The translations under genes were made by a program, and so were the position numbers. A DNA stretch of 64,000 nucleotides from NCBI RefSeq assembly GCF_014645235.1, contig NZ_BMLM01000001.1:1-64000 (forward strand), in the 5' to 3' direction. Source of the DNA: Agrococcus terreus (lineage in GTDB: Bacteria > Actinomycetota > Actinomycetes > Actinomycetales > Microbacteriaceae). The notes beneath the pieces were generated by a model. That model was not told where the DNA came from. It searched no databases and saw only the letters and a list, made by a program, of their open reading frames with translations. The first letter of the stretch is position 1, and each line of letters begins with the position of its first letter. Below are positions 29,939 through 63,110 of the stretch, in pieces.

Positions 29939-30394
29939 TCAGCGGATCGCGACGACCTCTACGAGCGCGCCGCCCGCGGCGTACCGCAGCGGCATCCCGG
30001 GATGCTCGATGGCGAACAAGAAGGTGCTCGTTCCCTCCTCGGACGCCACCTCGTAGCGGAGGCAGTCGCGCTCGCCGATCGCGAGCGCCACGCGCTCGGC
30101 GACGATCGTCGTGCGGTCGGCGGGGAACGCGGCGTGGGCCTGCAGCTCGAGCCACGTCGCGCGCGCCCGAGCCGGCTCGCCGAGCCAGGCCCCGTCGGGA
30201 TCGGCGGCGCCGGCCGCGATCGTCGCGCCCTCCGCATCCCCGTCCTCGAAGCGGTTCGCCCGCAGGGTCGCGGCACCGTCGGCGTCCACGGCGCGGATCA
30301 CGAGCAGGTGCCCGTCGGGGCAGCCGGCGCGGATCTCGTCGGCGGTGAACGGCGTCGGCGCGAGGCCGGGTCCGAGCACGTGCGGGTCGCTCAT
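29939..30394 (-). CDS. Conserved hypothetical protein
   Basis: This 151-residue protein belongs to no family I recognise. It is a soluble alpha/beta-type sequence with no signal peptide or membrane segment. A few motifs stand out: CPDGHLLVIR near residue 25, GDAEGATIAAGAADPDG near 52-68 and RDCLRYEVASEEGTSTFLF near 110-128. Start ATG 30394 is preceded six bases earlier by CATCAT, a weak version of the leaderless promoter element. It is convergent with the flavin reductase and downstream of a large hairpin, so it is a separate transcription unit. Confidence 0.6.
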   Translation of the reverse strand: MSDPHVLGPGLAPTPFTADEIRAGCPDGHLLVIRAVDADGAATLRANRFEDGDAEGATIAAGAADPDGAWLGEPARARATWLELQAHAAFPADRTTIVAERVALAIGERDCLRYEVASEEGTSTFLFAIEHPGMPLRYAAGGALVEVVAIR

Positions 30395-30472
30395 GGGGCG
30401 ATGATGCCACCGGGCGATGCGCACCGTGCGATGCGCACCGTGCGACGCGCATCCGAGCCGGACGCACACGCG

Positions 30473-30543
30473 TCGACAGGTGCGCCTCCGCCTCCCGGGT
30501 GCGGGTGGACCGGCACCCGGGAGGTCGGAGCGCACCTGTCGGC
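30473..30543 (-). terminator. Large hairpin after the TctA gene (GCGCCGACAGGTGC family)
   Basis: The two arms of about 29 bases (GACAGGTGCGC and CCTCCCGGGTGC are the conserved parts) pair almost perfectly around a loop of ~10 bases. Read in the direction of tctA transcription it begins GCGCCGACAGGTGC, starting 16 bases after the stop. The same opening with a different stem occurs after the genes ending at 36594 and 63111, with a related form at 40520. Confidence 0.75.
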
Positions 30544-30558
30544 GCGGTCCGGAGGCGG

Positions 30559-31941
30559 TCAGGCCACGAGCGCCATGATCGCCGGCACCGACAGCGCCGC
30601 GACGTAGAAGCCCATGAACTGCACGCCCGTGTGCATGTTGAACATGCGGTTGAGCAGGCCGCCGACGAGGCCGACCGTGAGCGCCACGAGGATCGCGACC
30701 AGGCCGCGCTCGTAGAGGCAGATCACCACGATGAGCGCCGCGAAGGCGCCGATGATCGCCTCGTGCGAGACCTTCCGCATCACCCAGCGAGCCGCGCGGT
30801 GCGCCTGCGTCATCGCGAACGGGTAGCTGATCACGACGGCGACGATGACCGCGAGGAGGCCGAACACCAGGAACTGCCACGGCTCGAGCATGTCGTGCAG
30901 GTTGTTCGTCGTGCCCGCCTCGGCGTCGATCGTGTAGACGGGCGGGGCGTTGAACAGCGGGTTGGCCGGACCGGCGGCCATCGGCGAGAGCGGCAGGCCG
31001 ATCGCGATGAGCGGGATGAGCGTCTCGGCGATGTACGTCGACTCGGTCGTGCCGTTGCGGATCGACATCGTCGACGTGAGGCGGTGGTAGCCGTTCTTGA
31101 AGCGGGTGCCGAAGAGCTCACCCATGAGCACCGTCATCGCCACGGGCGAGAACACGAACGTCGCGCTCGACACGGTGGCCGCCGCGGTCGTGTAGCCGAG
31201 CTGCTTCCGGTCGAGGACCCGCAGCGGGTTCGGGATGCGCCCCTTCCAGGTGCGCGTGTCGGCGGCGAGCTCGAACGTGCGCTGGTCGTCGCGCCCGATG
31301 AGCTTGCGGCCCGCGGGGCTCGAGGCCAGGAAGAGGTCGGCGATGAGCGGACCGGTCGCGATGCCGAGGAAGAACGAGATCGACAGGCCGCTGCCGGTCG
31401 TCGAGGTCGCGAACGCCTGCAGGCCGACGACGAGCAGCACGAACGGCACGAGCGCGAACAGCGCCGCCCAGCGGCCCTTCGAGAGGAAGGCGATGAGCAT
31501 CGCGGCGCCGAGGAAGAGCCACGGCGCCACCGAGCTGATGGCGTCGGCGAACGGCGTGAGCACGAGCGCGAAGAGCACGGCGAGGGGCACCGCGATGATC
31601 GCCGCGACGACGCCGCCGGAGATGGCCTTCCGGAGCGCGATGTGCGGCACGCCGAGCTCGCGGAGCATCTGCGCGTCGCGCAGGAGCGGCGCGGCCATGG
31701 TGTCGCCGGGGATGCCGAGCAGCGTGGTGGGCACCGCATGGGTGATGTGCTTCGACGCGATCGCCGCCATGAAGAAGGCGAACACGCCGGCCGGCGGGAC
31801 GCCGAGGAGGATGACGAGCAGCGTCACGGGGGCGATGGTCGCCGTCTCGTCGGTGCCCGAGACGAGGCCGAGGAGGCCGAACACGATGGCGCCGATGAGC
31901 GCCATCCCGAGGGCCCAGAGGGTGAGGTCGAGGAGCTCCAT
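30559..31941 (-). CDS. TctA-family permease (tripartite tricarboxylate transporter large subunit)
   Basis: This 460-residue, ~11-helix membrane protein has the TctA core features: VPTTLLGIPGDTMAAPLL with its conserved Gly-Ile-Pro-Gly loop, and LRKAISGGVVAAIIAVPLA. Length is slightly under the usual ~500. It starts one base into the stop of the preceding gene (TGATG). No TctC periplasmic binding protein is encoded nearby, which is unusual for a three-part system. Its operon with HMG-CoA reductase and lyase suggests uptake of mevalonate or a similar hydroxy-acid; the substrate is an inference. Confidence 0.82.
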   Translation of the reverse strand: MELLDLTLWALGMALIGAIVFGLLGLVSGTDETATIAPVTLLVILLGVPPAGVFAFFMAAIASKHITHAVPTTLLGIPGDTMAAPLLRDAQMLRELGVPHIALRKAISGGVVAAIIAVPLAVLFALVLTPFADAISSVAPWLFLGAAMLIAFLSKGRWAALFALVPFVLLVVGLQAFATSTTGSGLSISFFLGIATGPLIADLFLASSPAGRKLIGRDDQRTFELAADTRTWKGRIPNPLRVLDRKQLGYTTAAATVSSATFVFSPVAMTVLMGELFGTRFKNGYHRLTSTMSIRNGTTESTYIAETLIPLIAIGLPLSPMAAGPANPLFNAPPVYTIDAEAGTTNNLHDMLEPWQFLVFGLLAVIVAVVISYPFAMTQAHRAARWVMRKVSHEAIIGAFAALIVVICLYERGLVAILVALTVGLVGGLLNRMFNMHTGVQFMGFYVAALSVPAIMALVA

Positions 31942-32399
31942 CAGCGGTTCGCCTCCTGCTCGGAGCGCGGGTCGGCGGGCGCGGCGGCCTCACGGGCGGC
32001 GCGCTTGGCGTGCTGGCGGGCGAGGTCCTCGTAGAGGCCGAGCTCCTGCACCTCGCGCAGCACGGCGGCGGGCAGCTCGTCGGGGTCGCCGAGCGGGCCG
32101 TACTCGGCCTCGATCGCGTCCATCGCCTCCTCGCGCGAGCCCGCATCCGCGGCCGCGTCGACGAGGACGCGCTTGGGCGGGAAGATGCGCGCCGCGAGCA
32201 CGCCCGTGAGCACGCAGGCGCCGAGCCCGACGAGCAGCGCGTACGACTTCGCGAGCGCCGGCTCGACGTCGGTCTGCGAGAAGCCCCACGCGGCCAGCAG
32301 GTACGCGGGGGTCGCGAGGCCCACGCCGAGCAGGATGGACAGGAGCAGGTGGCGGCCGTCGACCGTGTCGCCCCACACCTCCAGGTACGAGCGCTTCAT
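31941..32399 (-). CDS. Two-helix membrane protein in TctB position
   Basis: This 152-residue protein has only two clear membrane helices (HLLLSILLGVGLATPAYLLAAW and ALLVGLGACVLTGVLAARI), followed by ~75 cytoplasmic, charged residues. TctB subunits normally have four helices, so this is either a reduced or a different small subunit. It sits directly between HMG-CoA lyase and TctA with overlaps on both sides (ATGA, TGATG), which argues for function with the permease. I do not recognise a named family. Confidence 0.7.
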   Translation of the reverse strand: MKRSYLEVWGDTVDGRHLLLSILLGVGLATPAYLLAAWGFSQTDVEPALAKSYALLVGLGACVLTGVLAARIFPPKRVLVDAAADAGSREEAMDAIEAEYGPLGDPDELPAAVLREVQELGLYEDLARQHAKRAAREAAAPADPRSEQEANR

Positions 32400-33352
32400 C
32401 GCGCCTCCCTTCCGCCCGCGAGCGCCTTCGCCACGCGGGATGTCGTGGCGCGGCCGAGCGCGTCGCTCAGCCATGCGCCGGTGCCGGCGAGCGCCGGCAG
32501 GTCGATGCCGTGCTCGATGCCGAGGCCGTCGAGCATCCAGACGAGGTCCTCGGTGGCGAGGTTGCCCGTCGCCGAGCGCGCGAACGGGCAGCCGCCGGTG
32601 CCCGCGACGGCGCTGTCGAAGACAGTGACGCCCGCCTGGAGACCGGCGAGCACGTTCGCGAGCGCCTGGCCGTAGGTGTCGTGGAGGTGCAGGCCGAGCT
32701 GCTCGACCGGCACCCCGCCCTCCTGCAGCGCGTCGACGAGCGCGCGCACGGCACCCGGGGTGCCGACGCCGATCGTGTCGCCGAGCGAGACCTCGTCGAC
32801 GCCCCAGTCGAGGAGGCGCTGCGCGAGCTCGACGGTCGGGGCGGCCTCGACGGCGCCCTCCCACGGGTCGCCGAAGACCATGGAGACGTAGCCGCGCACG
32901 CGCACGCCGCGCTCGACCGCGGCGCGGACGACGGCCTCGGCCGCCGCCTCCGACCGGGCCTTCGGCGCGCCCAGGTTGGCCTCGGAGAACGACTCGGTAG
33001 CGCTGAGGAAGACGGCGACCTCGCGCGCGCCCGCGGCGAGCGCGTCGTCGAGCCCGCGGAGGTTCGGGGTCAGGACGGGGAGGCGCGCCTCGACGTCGGC
33101 GAGCTCGCGCAGCACCGCGTCGGAGCCGGCCATCTGCGGCACGCGGTCGGCGCGGACGAAGCTGCCGGCCTCGATCACGGAGGCGCCGGCGGCCGCGAGG
33201 CGGCGCACGAGCTCGGCGCGGCGTGCGGGCTCGAGCGACACGGCCTCGGCCTGGAGGCCGTCGCGGGCGCCCACCTCCCAGATCGTGACGCGCTCGGGGA
33301 GGCCCTCGGCTCGGACGCGCATCGGCAGCCCGAGCGCGAGCGGGTCGCTCAT
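32396..33352 (-). CDS. mvaB: Hydroxymethylglutaryl-CoA lyase
   Basis: This 318-residue TIM-barrel lyase splits HMG-CoA to acetoacetate and acetyl-CoA. It shows the N-terminal EVGARDGLQ with catalytic Arg-Asp, HLHDTYGQALANV with metal-binding His pair, and the HMG-lyase active-site loop GTGGCPFARSATGNLATED with the catalytic Cys. The ATG overlaps the HMG-CoA reductase stop (ATGA). Pairing with a class II reductase is the organisation of the Pseudomonas mevalonii mvaAB operon for growth on mevalonate. Confidence 0.9.
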   Translation of the reverse strand: MSDPLALGLPMRVRAEGLPERVTIWEVGARDGLQAEAVSLEPARRAELVRRLAAAGASVIEAGSFVRADRVPQMAGSDAVLRELADVEARLPVLTPNLRGLDDALAAGAREVAVFLSATESFSEANLGAPKARSEAAAEAVVRAAVERGVRVRGYVSMVFGDPWEGAVEAAPTVELAQRLLDWGVDEVSLGDTIGVGTPGAVRALVDALQEGGVPVEQLGLHLHDTYGQALANVLAGLQAGVTVFDSAVAGTGGCPFARSATGNLATEDLVWMLDGLGIEHGIDLPALAGTGAWLSDALGRATTSRVAKALAGGREAR

Positions 33353-34614
33353 GCGCCCGACCGCAGCGCCACGAGCTCGCGCTCGGCGACGTCGGCGCGC
33401 ACGGCGCGCTGCTCGACGAGCCGCGCCGCGACCGCCTCGATCTCGTCGCCCTCCGCGCCCGCGGCGACCGCCACGTTGCGCGCGTGCAGCGCCATGTGGC
33501 CCTGCTGGATGCCCTCGGCGGCGAGCGCGCGCACCGCTGCCACGTTCTGCGCGAGGCCGACCGCGCAGATGAGCTGCGCGAGCTCCTGCGCCGTGCGCAC
33601 CTCGGTGAGCGCGACCGCCGCCTGCGCCGCGGGGTGCGAGCGGGTCGCGCCGCCCACGAGGCCCACCGCGATCGGCAGCTCGAGCGTGGCGACGAGGTCG
33701 CCGCCTTCGCCGCGCTCGAACCGCGAGAGCGAGCCGTAGTGGCCGTCCTGCACCGCGTGCGAGTGCGCGCCCGCCTCGACGGCGCGGGTGTCGTTGCCGG
33801 TCGCGAGCACGACGGCGCTGATGCCGTTCATGATGCCCTTGTTGTGCGTCGCGGCGCGGTACGGGTCGTCGGCCGCGAGCTGCGCGCCCGCGACCATGCG
33901 GTCGACGACGTCGGCGCCGCCGAGCACCTCGGCGGGGATGACCACGCGGGCGCGGCTGAGGCGGCGGTCGGCCTTGTTCGTGAGGATGCGCAGCAGCGGC
34001 TCGCCGCCCGCGAGCTCCGCGACGCGGCCCGAGATGGCCTCGGCCATCGTGTTCACCGCGTTCGCGCCCATCGCGTCGCGCACGTCGACGTGGAGGTGCG
34101 CGACGAGGTGCCTGCGTCCCTCCCGCTCCACGATCCGCACGTCGAGGTCGCGCACGCCGCCGCCGTGCTCGAGGAGCTTCGGGTCCTGCTCGTCGGCGAG
34201 CGCCATGAGCGCCTCGCGCTGCTCCAGGATGCGCAGGCGCGCGCCGTGCACGTCGGCGACGCCGATCACGTGGATCTGGGCCTGCATGATGGGCGCGGTG
34301 CTCGAGGTCGTGAAGCCGCCGCGCTCGCGCGCCATGCGGGCGATGTTGCTCGCCGCGGCGACGACGGAGGGCTCCTCGGTCGCCATCGGCACGAGCACCT
34401 CGCGGCCGTCGACGACGAAGTTCGTGGCGACGCCGACGGGGATGCCGATGCGGCCGACGACGTGCTCGATCATGCGGTCGGCGCGGGCCTCGTCGAGGCC
34501 GCCGTCCACGAGCGCCGCGAGCGCCTGCTCGTCGCCGACGGCGTCGGCGACGATCGCCCGCCGCTCCTCGATCGTGCGATTGCGCAGCCCGCTGAGCCTG
34601 CTCGTCCGTGCCAT
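33349..34614 (-). CDS. mvaA: HMG-CoA reductase, class II (probably degradative)
   Basis: This 421-residue enzyme interconverts mevalonate and HMG-CoA with NAD(P). Class II hallmarks are EHVVGRIGIPVGVATNF, the catalytic Glu in ATEEPSVVAAASN (80-81), the catalytic Lys in THNKGIMNGI, the cofactor-side DVRDAMGANAVNTMAE and the catalytic His in QGHMALHARN. ATG 34614 has a clear GGAGGAG site; an upstream in-frame ATG is rejected. No other mevalonate-pathway gene (mvaK, mvaD, mvaS) is in the window, whereas HMG-CoA lyase follows directly, favouring catabolism. Confidence 0.92.
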   Translation of the reverse strand: MARTSRLSGLRNRTIEERRAIVADAVGDEQALAALVDGGLDEARADRMIEHVVGRIGIPVGVATNFVVDGREVLVPMATEEPSVVAAASNIARMARERGGFTTSSTAPIMQAQIHVIGVADVHGARLRILEQREALMALADEQDPKLLEHGGGVRDLDVRIVEREGRRHLVAHLHVDVRDAMGANAVNTMAEAISGRVAELAGGEPLLRILTNKADRRLSRARVVIPAEVLGGADVVDRMVAGAQLAADDPYRAATHNKGIMNGISAVVLATGNDTRAVEAGAHSHAVQDGHYGSLSRFERGEGGDLVATLELPIAVGLVGGATRSHPAAQAAVALTEVRTAQELAQLICAVGLAQNVAAVRALAAEGIQQGHMALHARNVAVAAGAEGDEIEAVAARLVEQRAVRADVAERELVALRSGA

Positions 34615-34684
34615 CGTCGCCACTCCTCCGTGCTGCTCCGTCGTCAGCGGCACCAGTCAAGCGGCCGAGGGCGACCGCGCAGGT

Positions 34685-34697
34685 GTCCGATCCGGAC
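34685..34697. promoter_or_regulatory. Dyad GTCCG-ATC-CGGAC before the HMG-CoA reductase gene
   Basis: GTCCG (34685-34689) and CGGAC (34693-34697) form a 5-bp inverted repeat with a three-base centre, in the 87 bases between the PucR stop and the reductase start. A similar CGGA-TGTG-TCCG dyad occurs about 20 bases away inside the end of the PucR gene. These are candidate binding sites for the adjacent regulator. Function is inferred. Confidence 0.4.
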
Positions 34698-34701
34698 GCA
34701 A

Positions 34702-36447
34702 TCAGGCGGTCGGATGTGTCCGTTCGAGCGCGCGAAGCGCGAGGTGGAGGCGCACCGCGACCTCGACGCGGAAGCGCGGCTCCGGCTCGTCCCAGCCCTC
34801 GCCGAGGACGGCGCGGATGCGGGCGGCACGCTGCTTCACCGTGCTCACGTGCAGCTGCAGGGCACGCGCTGCGGCGACCGACGATCCCTGGGCGGCGAGC
34901 AGCGCCGCGAGCGTCGCGACGAGGTCGGTGCGTCGGTGGGCGTCCCAGGCGATGAGCCCGCCGATCGCGGCGTCGACGAACGCGCGGGCACGGCCTCCGT
35001 CGTCGTCGAACATCGCGGCGTAGGGGCCGAGGGACGCGGCGGTCGTCGTCGCCCGCTCGAGGCCGAGGCCGCGCAGCAGTCGAGCCGCCCGACCCGCGCC
35101 GCGCATCCCCTCGCCCGCGCCGCCCAGCGTCGCCACGGCATCCGCCACCACGAGCGCCGGCACCGGGCCGAGCACCTCGCCGGTGCGGTCCGCCGCCGCC
35201 TGGGCGTCGCCGCCGGGCAGCAGCACCGCGCACCCCTCGGGCACCGTCGCGACGAGCGCGCCGCGCAGCTGGCGCACGCGGGCCGCGGCCCGGGCGCGAT
35301 CGCCCTCCGCGACGCGCACCGCCACCGCGCACCACGGGTCCTCGACCGCGAGACCCCGCTGCCGGGCGCGACGGACTGCTGCCGCGGGGTCGGCGCTCTC
35401 GAGGAGGTCGAGCACGAGCTCGCCGCGCACGCGCTCCTCGGCGTCCGAGACGGCGCTCCGCTGCATCGTGACGAGCGCCAGGATCTGCGCCGAGCGCTCG
35501 AGCGTGCGCCGCTGCAGGTCGCTGAGCGGCGTGCCGCCGCCCACGAGCAGCGCCCCGATCCGCTCCCCCGCCGCCTGCACCGCGATCGCCGCGCGCGCGA
35601 CACCCCGCTCGAGCACGGCCGCACGGCCCGTCCCCGCGCTGCGCACGACCGCGCGCGCGAGGTCGCCCCGGCCCGCCTCGGGCACGGGCGCGGTGCCCCA
35701 GATCGCCTCACCCTGTACGCCGACCGCCCACACGGGGCGCTGCAGCGCCGTCGCGAGCGCCGCGACGACGTCGTCGGGACCGCCGCCGTCGACGATGAGC
35801 TCGGTGAGCTCGCCGTGCAGCCGGGAGGCCGAGAGCGTCTCGGCCGCGAGCCGCTCGGCGCGCTCGCGGGCGGCATCCGCCTCGCGACGGCTCGCGGTGA
35901 GCTCGTCGAGCACGGCCGCGATCCGCAGCACGATCGCCGCGTGGCTCGCGAACGCGGTGAGGAGCGCCGCGTCGTCGTCGTCGAATCGCCGGGCGGCCCG
36001 GTTGGCGGCGAAGAGCACGCCGAGCACCTCGCCGCCGGCCAGCAGCGGTGCGCCGAGGATGGCGTGGATGCCCTCGGCGCGCACGATCGCGTCGATCTCG
36101 GGATCGCGCGGCAGCGCGCCGATCTGCTCGTAGTCGGCCACCGACCGGGCGGCACGGGTACGCACCACCTCGCTCGCGACGCCGACGCCGGCCGGCACGC
36201 GCATCCCGAGGAACCGACCCGTCTCGGAGCCGCGCACCGCCCGCACGAAGAGCTGGTCGGTCGGCGCGTCGTACGCGGAGAGGTAGGTGACGTCGGCGCC
36301 CGCGAGGTCGTGCACGCGGTCGACGATGCGCTGCAGCATCGCGGTCGCGTCCTCGACGTCGAGCAGGTCGTGGGTGGTGCTCGCGATCGCGGCGAGCTGC
36401 GCCTCGGCGCGCTCGAGCCGCTCGCGATCGCCCTCGCCCGTCGTCAC
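34702..36447 (-). CDS. GAF-domain PucR/CdaR-type transcriptional regulator
   Basis: This 581-residue regulator has a GAF sensory domain at ~20-170 (VTYLSAYDAPTDQLFVRAV, ASHAAIVLRIAAVLDELT), a central degenerate region, and a C-terminal PucR-type helix-turn-helix near 505-575 (LQLHVSTVKQRAARIRAVLG). GTG 36447 follows GGAGGC closely. PucR-type proteins usually control a neighbouring catabolic operon in response to its substrate. Here the HMG-CoA reductase/lyase/TctA genes follow on the same strand after 87 bases, so it is the likely regulator of that unit. The probable -10 is TAGCCT at 36488-36483. Confidence 0.85.
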   Translation of the reverse strand: MTTGEGDRERLERAEAQLAAIASTTHDLLDVEDATAMLQRIVDRVHDLAGADVTYLSAYDAPTDQLFVRAVRGSETGRFLGMRVPAGVGVASEVVRTRAARSVADYEQIGALPRDPEIDAIVRAEGIHAILGAPLLAGGEVLGVLFAANRAARRFDDDDAALLTAFASHAAIVLRIAAVLDELTASRREADAARERAERLAAETLSASRLHGELTELIVDGGGPDDVVAALATALQRPVWAVGVQGEAIWGTAPVPEAGRGDLARAVVRSAGTGRAAVLERGVARAAIAVQAAGERIGALLVGGGTPLSDLQRRTLERSAQILALVTMQRSAVSDAEERVRGELVLDLLESADPAAAVRRARQRGLAVEDPWCAVAVRVAEGDRARAAARVRQLRGALVATVPEGCAVLLPGGDAQAAADRTGEVLGPVPALVVADAVATLGGAGEGMRGAGRAARLLRGLGLERATTTAASLGPYAAMFDDDGGRARAFVDAAIGGLIAWDAHRRTDLVATLAALLAAQGSSVAAARALQLHVSTVKQRAARIRAVLGEGWDEPEPRFRVEVAVRLHLALRALERTHPTA

Positions 36448-36518
36448 GCCGCCTCCGCTCGTCCGCCCTCGCACCGCCGTCCAGGCTACTGATGCGCCAG
36501 GGCGGGCTCGGCGAGCAG

Positions 36519-36582
36519 TGCCCCGCGGGGCGGGAGGTGCCGGTGCACCGGCACCCGCCGTCCCGCGGGGCACCTGTCGGCG
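36519..36582 (-). terminator. Large hairpin after serine hydrolase gene
   Basis: GTGCCCCGCGGGG at 36519 pairs with CCCGCGGGGCAC ending at 36573, with a perfectly palindromic 20-base centre built on GGTGCCGGTG. Read leftward it begins GCGCCGACAGGTGC, the same entry sequence as the hairpins at 30473 and 63045, and starts about ten bases after the stop at 36594. Confidence 0.7.
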
Positions 36583-36593
36583 CTGCTGTCGCC

Positions 36594-37640
36594 TCAGGCT
36601 GCGGGTGAGCTCCCGCCTCCCGCCGCGCCGTCGAGCGCCGCGTCGACCGCATCCGCGAGCGCGCCGATGACGGGCCAGCCGCCGTCGGAGGAGTTGCCGA
36701 GCACGCTCACCGTCGTGCGCGCCGTGACCAGGTGCGTCGAGCGGAACGACGCCCCCGCATCCCAGCCCTCCACGATGAGCGCCTCGTGCTCGCCGTGCAG
36801 GAACAAGCCGAGGCCGGCGCGCTTGCCCTCGTCGGGCACCTCGTGGCGCGGCGCCATCATCGTCGCGAGCGTGTCGCGCCGCACGATGCGGCCGTCGAGC
36901 AGCGCGAGCCAGAAGCGGTGGAGGTCGGCAGCCGTCGTGAAGGCGCCGCCGTCGCCGGCGCCCAGCACCGGCAGCCGCAGCACCGCATCCTCGTCGCCCT
37001 CGTCGAAGACGTAAGGGCGCGCCGCGTCGCCCGGCAGCGCGTCGAGGCGGATGTGGTCGGTCGCCTCGAGGCCCGCGGGCTCGAGCACGAGGCGGCGCAC
37101 GACCGCCTGGAACGGCTCCCCCGCGACGCGCTCGAGCACGATCGCGAGCACCGCGTAGCCGCCGTTGCAGTACGCGAAGCCGCTGCCGGGCGCGAACTTC
37201 TGCGGGAAGCCCTCGAGCAGCGGCAGGAACGCCTCCGCGGTCGTGAGCACGTGCGGCGGCACCGTGAGCGGGAACTCGGAGGGCTCCCAGTCGCCCTCCT
37301 CGTCGAGGTAGTCGCCGATGCCGGAGGTGTGGCCGAGCAGGTGCTCGATCGTCACCGCGTCGTCGATGAGCGGCAGGTCGTCGCCGAGCAGCTCGCGCAC
37401 CGGCTGGTCGAGCCGCAGCGCGCCGTCCTCGACGAGCCGCATGACCGCGAGCGCCGTGAACGCCTTGCTGCCGCTCGCGACCGCGATGCGCGCATCCGCC
37501 CGCATCGGCACGCGGTAGCCGCGGTGCATCCACCCCTCGGCGCGCTCGAGCACGCGCTCCCCGCCCACGTCGATCGCGACGACGCCCGAGAAGGGCCCCT
37601 CCGCGATCGCCTCGTCGAGCTCCTGCTGGTCCCAGTGCAT
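36594..37640 (-). CDS. Serine hydrolase (beta-lactamase-related family), cytoplasmic
   Basis: This 348-residue protein of the penicillin-binding/beta-lactamase fold has S-x-x-K in ASGSKAF, Y-C-N in FAYCNGGY, and TIEHLLGHTSGI. No signal peptide is present: the sequence begins MHWDQQELDEAI, so it is probably an intracellular esterase or peptidase rather than an antibiotic-resistance enzyme. GGGGAGC precedes the ATG. It is isolated between two hairpin terminators. Confidence 0.83.
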   Translation of the reverse strand: MHWDQQELDEAIAEGPFSGVVAIDVGGERVLERAEGWMHRGYRVPMRADARIAVASGSKAFTALAVMRLVEDGALRLDQPVRELLGDDLPLIDDAVTIEHLLGHTSGIGDYLDEEGDWEPSEFPLTVPPHVLTTAEAFLPLLEGFPQKFAPGSGFAYCNGGYAVLAIVLERVAGEPFQAVVRRLVLEPAGLEATDHIRLDALPGDAARPYVFDEGDEDAVLRLPVLGAGDGGAFTTAADLHRFWLALLDGRIVRRDTLATMMAPRHEVPDEGKRAGLGLFLHGEHEALIVEGWDAGASFRSTHLVTARTTVSVLGNSSDGGWPVIGALADAVDAALDGAAGGGSSPAA

Positions 37641-37864: not shown

Positions 37865-39484
37865 TCAGGCGGGGCGGTCCTGCAGGGCGCCGTCCTCGAT
37901 CGACCAGCGGCGGGTGAGGCCGAGCCGATCGAGGAACGGCTCGTCGTGGCTCACCACGACGAGGGCGCCCTCGAACGCGCCCAGCGCCTCCACGAGCCGG
38001 TCGATGGAGTCGAGGTCGAGCGAGTTCGTCGGCTCGTCGAGCAGCAGGAGGCGCGGCGCCGGATCCGCGAGGAGCAGCCGCGCGAGCGCGAGCCGGAACC
38101 GCTCGCCGCCCGAGAGCTCGGCCACCTGCTGGTCGCCGCGCGCGCCCCGGAACAGGAAGCGCGCGAGCTGCGCCCGCACCTCCCCCGGCGTGCGGTCCGG
38201 CGCCGTCTCGCGCACCGCCTCGACGAGCGTCGCCGCCTCGTCCGAGAATCGGATGCGCTGCGGCAGCACCCCGAGCTCGGCGATCCGATGCACCACCCGC
38301 GCAGCCGGCTCCGGCGCACCCGGCGGCGCCTCGGCCGCCGAGCCCCAGCGCGCGACGGCCCCGAGCAGCGCCGACTTCCCGGCGCCGTTGCGGCCGGTGA
38401 GCGCTATGCGCTCGCGGCCGCGCACGTCCAGCCGCCGGCCGTCGGGCAGCGCGAGCGCGAGCACGTCGCGGCCGGCCGGCACGCGGGTGTCAGGGAGGGC
38501 GATGCGGATCGCACCCTCGTCGCGCACCTTCGCCCGCGCGGACTCCAGCGCGGCCTCCGCCGATGCCTCACGGCCCTCGTGGAGCGCCTTCGAGCGCGCC
38601 GAGGTGCGCTCCGACGCGTTCTGCAGCCCGTTCGCGACGATCCTCGGGATGCCGCCCGCGAGCTGCGCGCGACGACCGGCGGCCTCCGCCCGCTGCCGCT
38701 GCTCGTTCGCCTCGATGCGGTCGCGGCGCTCGCGCCGCACGACGGCTTCCGCATCCCGCACGTGCTGCGCTGCCGCCGCCTGCTCGACCGCGATCGCGGC
38801 GCGGTAGGCGGAGTACGGGCCCTCGAACGCCCGCAGCGTCGAGCCGTGCAGCTCGGCGATGCGATCGACCCGCTCGAGCAGCGCCACGTCGTGGCTGACG
38901 ACCACGAGGGTGCCGCGCCAGTCCGCGACCGCCTCGTGCAGGCGCGCGCGGGCATCGGCGTCGAGGTCGTTCGTGGGCTCGTCGAGCAGCGCGATGTCGG
39001 CGCGCTGCAGCCGGATGGCCGCGAGTCCGACGAGCACCGCCTCGCCGCCCGAGAGCGACGCGACGGGCCGGCGCAGCAGGTCGGCGTCGCCGGACAGGCC
39101 GAGCGCGGCGAGCGCGCCGAGCGCCTCCGCCTCGACGCCCCATCGGTCGCCGACGGCGTCGAAGCGGGCCTGCGCGACGTCGCCGCGCTCGATCGCCGCG
39201 ATGGCGTCGAGCACAGGCGCGATGCCGAGCGCGTCGGCGACCGTGCCCGGTCCGAGCGCGAGCCGCTGCGGCAGCGTCGCGACGGTGCCCTGGACGGCGA
39301 CCTCGCCGTCGGTCGGCCGCAGCTCGCCCGCGATGAGGCGGAGCAGGGTGGTCTTGCCGGCGCCGTTGCGGCCGACGAGGCCCGTGGTGCCGTGGCCGAG
39401 GGCGCCGGTGACGCCGTCGAGCGCGACGGTGCCGTCGGGCCATGCGAGATGGACGCGCGAGAGCGCGATGGCGTGATGTGCCAA
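37865..39484 (-). CDS. ABC-F family ribosome-associated ATPase (candidate antibiotic resistance factor)
   Basis: This 539-residue protein has two ABC domains and no membrane part. Domain 1: Walker [10 protein letters not shown], signature SLSGGEAVL, Walker [11 protein letters not shown]. Domain 2: [30 protein letters not shown]. The ~95-residue charged linker ([20 protein letters not shown] and onward) is the P-site tRNA-interacting region; its length and basic charge fit antibiotic-protecting ABC-F proteins. The start is TTG 39484 with GGAGGATC eight bases upstream. A 5' leader with an 11-codon peptide and an anti-ribosome-binding-site element precedes it, supporting drug-inducible expression. 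Confidence 0.85.
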
Positions 39485-63013: not shown

Positions 63014-63044
63014 GCGGGACCGCGGCGCCGCATCCTCGCCGAGC

Positions 63045-63102
63045 GGTGCCCGCGCGGATGAGGGGTGCCGGTCCACCAGCACCCCTCATCCGTGCGAGCA
63101 CC
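63045..63102. terminator. Large hairpin between convergent genes
   Basis: The arms (core GGATGAGGGGTGC, 63056-63068, with GCACCCCTCATCC, 63079-63091) extend outward to GGTGC and GCACC. On the minus strand it begins GCGCCGACAGGTGC eight bases after the permease stop, the same entry as the hairpins at 30473 and 36519 but with another stem sequence. It probably terminates both flanking genes. Confidence 0.72.
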
Positions 63103-63110
63103 TGTCGGCG

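Follow-up and report, generated by a model that had tools for sequence, protein, structure and literature searches.

A candidate mevalonate utilisation operon with a divergent TctA-family permease and a two-helix partner protein in Agrococcus terreus

We analysed a stretch of 64,000 nucleotides (nt) of the Agrococcus terreus contig NZ_BMLM01000001.1 (this whole stretch is referred to as the window), which carries on its minus strand (36447 to 30559) a cluster of five genes that very probably constitute an operon for the uptake and catabolism of mevalonate. The predicted proteins were assigned to families by Pfam and NCBIfam profile searches using curated cut-offs; absence of a match was judged at an E-value of 0.001. 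The genes encode, in order, (i) a regulator with a GAF domain and a PucR-type helix-turn-helix (HTH), (ii) a class II 3-hydroxy-3-methylglutaryl-CoA (HMG-CoA) reductase, (iii) an HMG-CoA lyase, (iv) a small membrane protein with two hydrophobic segments and (v) a divergent permease of the TctA family (Table 1). The ORF check of the window revealed that all five open reading frames are intact. The regulator gene is separated from the reductase gene by 87 nt, and the subsequent genes overlap by 4 nt (reductase and lyase), 4 nt (lyase and small protein) and 1 nt (small protein and permease), which confirms the row of genes, with overlaps among the last four, that was recognised in a first-pass annotation of this DNA.

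Table 1. Features of the five-gene cluster of A. terreus and of its flanks (lengths in amino acids, aa)
Feature	Position in the window	Strand	Basis
Regulator with GAF domain and PucR-type HTH, 581 aa, GTG start, first gene of the cluster	34702..36447	-	PF01590, 63.2 bits; HTH_30 (PF13556), 49 bits
Predicted class II NAD-type (degradative) HMG-CoA reductase, 421 aa	33349..34614	-	TIGR00532, 381 bits; PF00368, 342 bits
HMG-CoA lyase, 318 aa	32396..33352	-	NF004283, 325 bits; HMGL-like (PF00682), 148.6 bits
Two-helix membrane protein with hydrophilic C-terminal tail, 152 aa, conserved partner of the permease	31941..32399	-	hydrophobic segments 18-36 and 55-73
Divergent TctA-family permease, 460 aa, proposed mevalonate importer	30559..31941	-	PF01970, 69.5 bits (cut-off 28.9)
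Palindrome with 38-nt arms and no T run, directly after the TctA stop codon; possible terminator	30469..30546		not listed by the terminator scan
Similar palindrome between the PucR gene and the upstream gene (36594-37640, minus strand)	36509..36582		palindrome comparison

The reductase is the single match of its kind in the genome. Its score for TIGR00532 lies well above the cut-off (260), versus 49 bits for the NADPH model TIGR00533 (cut-off 442), and an Asp is present at the position of D146 of the Pseudomonas mevalonii enzyme, both of which point to an NAD-type class II reductase. The residues aligned with E83, D146, K267, D283 and H381 of the P. mevalonii protein are identical in the two enzymes and comprise the catalytic residues as well as the Asp at D146. 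The closest solved chains are 6dio, 9v7y, 1qax and 6p7k (402-425 bits, the next group reaching 276 bits), of which 6dio, 1qax and 6p7k are presumably the enzymes of Delftia, P. mevalonii and Burkholderia, respectively. Excerpts of a study of the HMG-CoA reductase of Ruegeria (PMC12292504) state that an Asp sets the use of NAD in that enzyme. The lyase, encoded in the same operon, exceeds the cut-off of NF004283 (246) and scores 268 bits with human HMG-CoA lyase (2cw6).

The first-pass annotation interpreted the cluster in terms of mevalonate catabolism, an interpretation that biosynthetic genes elsewhere in the genome would contradict. No match to HMG-CoA synthase (PF08540) was found in the genome of this strain (2.83 Mb in 8 contigs, 99.95% complete). 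The three GHMP kinases detected in it were identified as galK, ispE and thrB, each scoring over a curated cut-off (e.g. thrB, encoding homoserine kinase: 214 bits, cut-off 168), and no mevalonate kinase is present among the GHMP matches, mvaD not having been searched on its own. The combination of HMG-CoA synthase and mevalonate kinase that characterises mevalonate biosynthesis therefore appears to be lacking. Genes of the methylerythritol phosphate (MEP) pathway are present, namely dxr (371.5 bits, cut-off 315.7) and ispE, and this pathway should supply the isoprenoids. Given the lack of a synthase match, the identity of the three kinases and the presence of dxr and ispE, the reductase should run in the direction of mevalonate oxidation, and the catabolic interpretation is thus supported.

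It is hardly credible that the reductase instead produces mevalonate for isoprenoids, with the TctA protein exporting or balancing it. Class II reductases work in both directions, according to excerpts of PMC12292504, and some members of the family, fused to mevalonate kinase, are biosynthetic; however, such a role is at odds with the missing synthase match, the lack of mevalonate kinase among the GHMP matches, the MEP genes and the presence of a lyase gene within the same operon. The genome also encodes, elsewhere, a 3-oxoacid CoA-transferase pair (TIGR02428, 333 bits; TIGR02429, 225 bits; both over the cut-off), which is a plausible route onward from acetoacetate. It is located near a gene scoring 299 bits with the 3-hydroxybutyrate dehydrogenase model, i.e. 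below the cut-off of 307.

Reductases matching TIGR00532 are not confined to loci of this kind. They were detected in 39 of the 321 genomes of a class sample around a Paraburkholderia genome (24 above the cut-off). The nine loci taken from this sample contain neither the TctA permease nor the small protein (0/9); TRAP genes adjoin the reductase in one of them, and in several the reductase is fused to a kinase domain. In four loci of this Gammaproteobacterial class sample (L158, L161, L164 and L165), a single frame of 749-763 codons encodes both the TIGR00532 reductase and the kinase domain, and the second part of the L158 fusion scores 240 bits with the mevalonate kinase model TIGR00549 (cut-off 163).

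Five TctA matches were identified in the genome of A. terreus. Four of them reach 447-510 bits with PF01970, versus 67-69.5 bits for the permease of the cluster, a score that still assigns this protein to the TctA component of the tripartite tricarboxylate transporters (TTTs). The permease shares 18-21% aa sequence identity with the other four TctAs, the first P-G motif of these canonical proteins corresponds to S-G-T-D in its sequence, and a sequence search revealed no solved relative at an E-value of 1 or better. Each of the four canonical TctAs has a TctC match within approximately 0.8 kb (the genome encodes four TctC proteins), and inspection by eye placed TctB-like sequences between TctC and TctA at all four loci. 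Neither TctC nor DctP was found in the 64-kb window when the four TctCs of this genome and one DctP were used as queries, which upholds the absence of TctC noted in the first-pass annotation. Thus, two hallmarks of a tripartite system, a TctC accompanying the permease and a TctB subunit with four to five helices, seem to be missing from the cluster.

The place of TctB may be taken by the small protein, which has no Pfam or NCBIfam match. Among 79 copies of this protein from related loci (see below), two hydrophobic segments are present in 73, one in 5 and none in 1; the last is presumably the copy of L128, which was extracted at only 5 residues. Ten columns are invariant across 52 sequences (E7, W9, D11, V13, Y53, G58, P75, R77, E116 and L120), and the positive charges flanking both segments suggest that both ends of the protein are located inside the cell. 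Homology of the protein to TctB was also sought and not detected: a 56-member profile gave an hhalign probability of 0.5% against the TctBs of the same genome, a profile of only four sequences that leaves room for remote homology. The 56-member profile had no consistent Pfam match, and TctB was absent from the 25 listed of 43 weak families. The term "reduced small subunit", used in the first-pass annotation, should therefore be replaced by that of a distinct two-helix partner.

In order to establish how widely these genes occur together, relatives of the permease were sought in one genome per species, using a nine-row TctA alignment and two conserved peptide patterns. The scan, covering relatives that carry both patterns, confirmed 386 proteins, and the best 80 of them, with 7-kb flanks, form the set of related loci to which the counts below refer. 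Judging by genus names, the hosts are Actinomycetota, Beta- and Alphaproteobacteria, one Gammaproteobacterium and one metagenome-assembled genome (MAG) labelled Acidobacteria. A reductase is encoded near TctA in 78 of the 80 loci (479-2691 nt from it), and a homologue of the small protein is present in 79, its end lying 3-144 nt before the TctA match. A clear lyase was found in 48 loci (51 at a looser cut, three of these being weak and on the other strand). Homologues of the PucR/GAF regulator scoring at least 100 bits are also present in 48 loci, while 26 loci from Proteobacterial genera encode, in place of PucR, a MocR-like regulator that is annotated as a member of the pyridoxal phosphate-dependent aminotransferase family. 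In a further locus (L036:4545-8879), the PucR regulator matches in two pieces separated by approximately 2.7 kb, as if split by an insertion.

With score floors of 200 bits for MocR, 100 bits for PucR and 230 bits for the lyase (HMGL), the order PucR-reductase-HMGL-small protein-TctA was observed in 40 of the 80 loci. The order reductase-small protein-TctA, preceded by MocR on the opposite strand, was found in 21 and PucR-reductase-small protein-TctA in 7, and the remaining 12 loci display 8 other gene orders. Chance gene order was rejected, since half of the loci share the identical five-gene order. The neighbourhood survey that the first-pass annotation had proposed thus yielded a linkage extending through Actinomycetota and Proteobacteria. 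The distances that separate the reductase, the permease and the small protein from one another are correlated (r 0.88-0.94 in the 78 loci with all three genes; r 0.89-0.94 in 74 of the 80 loci, leaving out L097 and L116, in which genes are lacking, and L069, L074, L088 and L111). As evidence this is weak, since shared ancestry would suffice to produce such a correlation. The permease profile matched 2 of the 396 genomes of a phylum sample, including that of A. terreus itself (at most four candidates were scored per genome), so that this permease clade is sparse within the sample.

The linkage also bears on the nature of the substrate. Since the permease is linked to the reductase (78/80) more often than to the lyase (48/80), the linked substrate should be mevalonate and not 3-hydroxy-3-methylglutarate (HMG). 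The lyase gene was missing at the looser cut from 29 loci; in the 26 genomes of these that were searched (those of L074, L119 and L129 were left out), a lyase-like match was found in every case, the weakest best E-value being 1.3e-49. We regard as improbable the import by the permease of HMG or another branched hydroxy-acid, in which a CoA-transferase would generate HMG-CoA for cleavage by the lyase and the reductase would be secondary. Such a route would suit the location of the lyase gene, which in the window separates the genes of the reductase and the small protein, as well as the carboxylates transported by members of the TctA family (excerpts of the 2018 TTT review, PMC5812351); it conflicts with the linkage counts, and no CoA-transferase or ligase match is present among the five cluster genes. 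Of the two types of substrate named in the first-pass annotation, mevalonate or a related branched hydroxy-acid, mevalonate is thus favoured and HMG is disfavoured.

Related reductase loci were also inspected for the transporter that they encode. In an order-level set (15 loci from 13 of 20 genomes with a match; the window was excluded, as were six low- or other-type genomes), TctA with the small protein was found in 9 loci, an MHS-type carrier in 3 (one at only 34% identity) and an SSS symporter in 1, while peptide-type ABC genes are located near 2 loci, of which one is at a contig edge. Among plasmids, a reductase match was identified in 37 records, 6 of which contain a close TctA, within approximately 0.6 kb of the reductase in 6/6, and the small protein is present in exactly those 6. 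This TctA is annotated as "tripartite tricarboxylate transporter permease" in 4 of the 6 records and corresponds to no listed gene in 2. Of the 18 plasmid reductase regions examined (from the 37 records), 4 carry TctA with the small protein, 8 carry TRAP genes, 2 have ABC-type genes, 1 has an SSS gene nearby, and in 3 no transporter was seen. That unrelated transporters alternate at the same position is what would be expected if the operon were catabolic and required an importer.

Two further loci deserve mention. In L043 (10458-14021), the PucR and reductase genes are followed by genes for an unknown protein of 130 aa, an SSS symporter and an acyl-CoA ligase; a different type of transporter is accompanied here by a small, unnamed partner. 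In L055, a plasmid of Salinigranum marinum, the gene after the haloarchaeal reductase belongs to the AtuA family; two small hypothetical genes come next, and a sodium/proline-type symporter gene lies opposite together with a small hypothetical gene. Comparison of the Ruegeria DctP with solved structures, in search of a TRAP protein that binds mevalonate, retrieved DctP-type proteins in general (best match 2zzv), a result that is uninformative on mevalonate.

Several observations weigh against a mevalonate utilisation operon with a dedicated importer that operates without a binding protein: (i) a TctC-like gene, detected with the own-genome TctCs as queries, is present in 5 of the 80 loci; (ii) L097 (Brevibacterium oceani) contains the small protein and TctA and no reductase within the 7-kb flanks; (iii) the 80-locus linkage counts related genomes and not independent events; and (iv) a Gammaproteobacterial TIGR00532 match scoring as high as 422 bits is fused to mevalonate kinase. 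Regarding the second point, the other locus devoid of a reductase is L116, in which 74 bases of contig precede the gene; a search of the genomes of L097 and L116, made without a positive control and in the case of L116 in a fragmented MAG, did not reveal a reductase. As for the last point, fusions of this kind mean that a TIGR00532 match alone is no proof of catabolism, and the label "degradative" does not fit them. The catabolic argument for A. terreus is consequently based on the operon together with the lack of biosynthetic genes, the family name being insufficient.

The five loci with a TctC-like gene all belong to Achromobacter or Bordetella. In four of them this gene is on the opposite strand, only approximately 0.2 kb after TctA in the case of L135, and in the fifth (L101) it is on the same strand, 4.6 kb away. 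These genes were not counted as partners because, according to excerpts of PMC5812351, Bordetella and some relatives contain many orphan TctC genes, though they could still be partners of the permease. It is unlikely that the A. terreus protein is an ordinary TTT permease that relies on a borrowed binding protein, either the TctC of one of the four canonical systems or a different protein. The genome does contain four TctC proteins, the review (same excerpts) discusses binding proteins of other systems as possible partners, and the five loci fit such an arrangement; nevertheless, each of the four TctCs is encoded within approximately 0.8 kb of its own canonical TctA, no TctC-like gene was detected with the four own-genome queries in the other 75 of 80 loci, and the permease deviates from the canonical proteins at the first P-G motif.

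Taken together, it is highly probable that the cluster is a mevalonate utilisation operon, in which the TctA-family permease and the two-helix protein would import mevalonate without a binding protein, and the compound would be broken down for carbon and energy. As deduced from the sequence, external mevalonate would enter through the permease and its partner, probably by cation-coupled carboxylate symport as in the TTT family, and the small protein probably replaces TctB as an assembly or stability subunit. The reductase would then convert mevalonate, CoA and 2 NAD+ into HMG-CoA, the reaction established for reductases of the P. mevalonii type. For the activation of acetoacetate, the 3-oxoacid CoA-transferase pair whose genes are located beside the 3-hydroxybutyrate dehydrogenase-like gene is probably responsible, and the GAF/PucR protein probably activates the operon when mevalonate or a product of the pathway is present. 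We infer that the importer is a variant of the tripartite tricarboxylate transporters, dedicated to mevalonate.

The operon is flanked on either side by a palindrome (Table 1). These two sequences and a third one (63037-63110), each of approximately 75 nt, end alike in GCACCTGTCGGCG and look like a repeated element or a terminator family. Within 30300-36700, the promoter scan identified no sigma-70-like site, and the terminator scan identified a single terminator-like site, within the reductase gene on the opposite strand; neither result is informative in an actinobacterium of high GC content. Repeats are also present near the gene starts. Two genes located upstream of the operon and in the same orientation encode a beta-lactamase-fold protein (PF00144, 160 bits; 36594-37640) and an ABC-F-like protein (37865-39484), whose scores do not reach the curated cut-offs of the listed NCBIfam resistance models.

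The enzymatic route itself is already known from the mvaAB genes for mevalonate catabolism of P. mevalonii. The A. terreus cluster resembles mvaAB in that an NAD-type class II reductase gene adjoins a lyase gene, the predicted route leads to acetoacetate and acetyl-CoA, and the catalytic residues are kept; it differs in containing the TctA permease, the two-helix protein and a GAF/PucR regulator, whereas the regulator of the P. mevalonii operon is reportedly the LysR-type MvaR. In the loci of Ruegeria pomeroyi, Tistrella, Sulfitobacter and others, a degradative-type reductase is also encoded beside a carboxylate-type transporter, though this is a TRAP system (DctPQM) with a binding protein in place of TctA and the small protein. 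With the TctABC transporters described in excerpts of PMC5812351, the cluster shares a TctA-family permease; unlike them, it has no TctC in the window, and a two-helix protein with no detected similarity to TctB stands in place of the four-helix subunit. Excerpts of PMC5898192 and PMC5812351 present archaeal TctAs that are thought to be functional without TctC, most of them being lone genes, in contrast to the two-helix partner and the catabolic operon conserved here in bacteria; the same excerpts discuss bacterial TctAs devoid of a binding protein as rare orphans.

The layout was unfamiliar to the first-pass annotation. In the titles and abstract beginnings of the open-licence literature, whose full texts could mention one, we found no TctA linked to mevalonate or paired with a two-helix protein without a binding protein, and no bacterial mevalonate permease. 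The layout is not peculiar to this genome and recurs across several classes. We are inclined to believe that this bacterial TctA clade, lacking both a binding protein and TctB, forms a binary carrier with a two-helix, cytoplasmic-tailed partner, is specific for mevalonate and serves as a natural importer across Actinomycetota and Proteobacteria. If so, a substrate would be assigned to a clade of TctA permeases, and a function would be given to a protein family without a Pfam or NCBIfam model. The question of the 2018 TTT review (in the excerpts of PMC5812351), whether TctA of bacteria can function in the absence of a binding protein, would become testable. Metabolic engineering, for which a yeast carrier was evolved to import mevalonate (excerpts of PMC12405511), would gain a natural importer of this compound.

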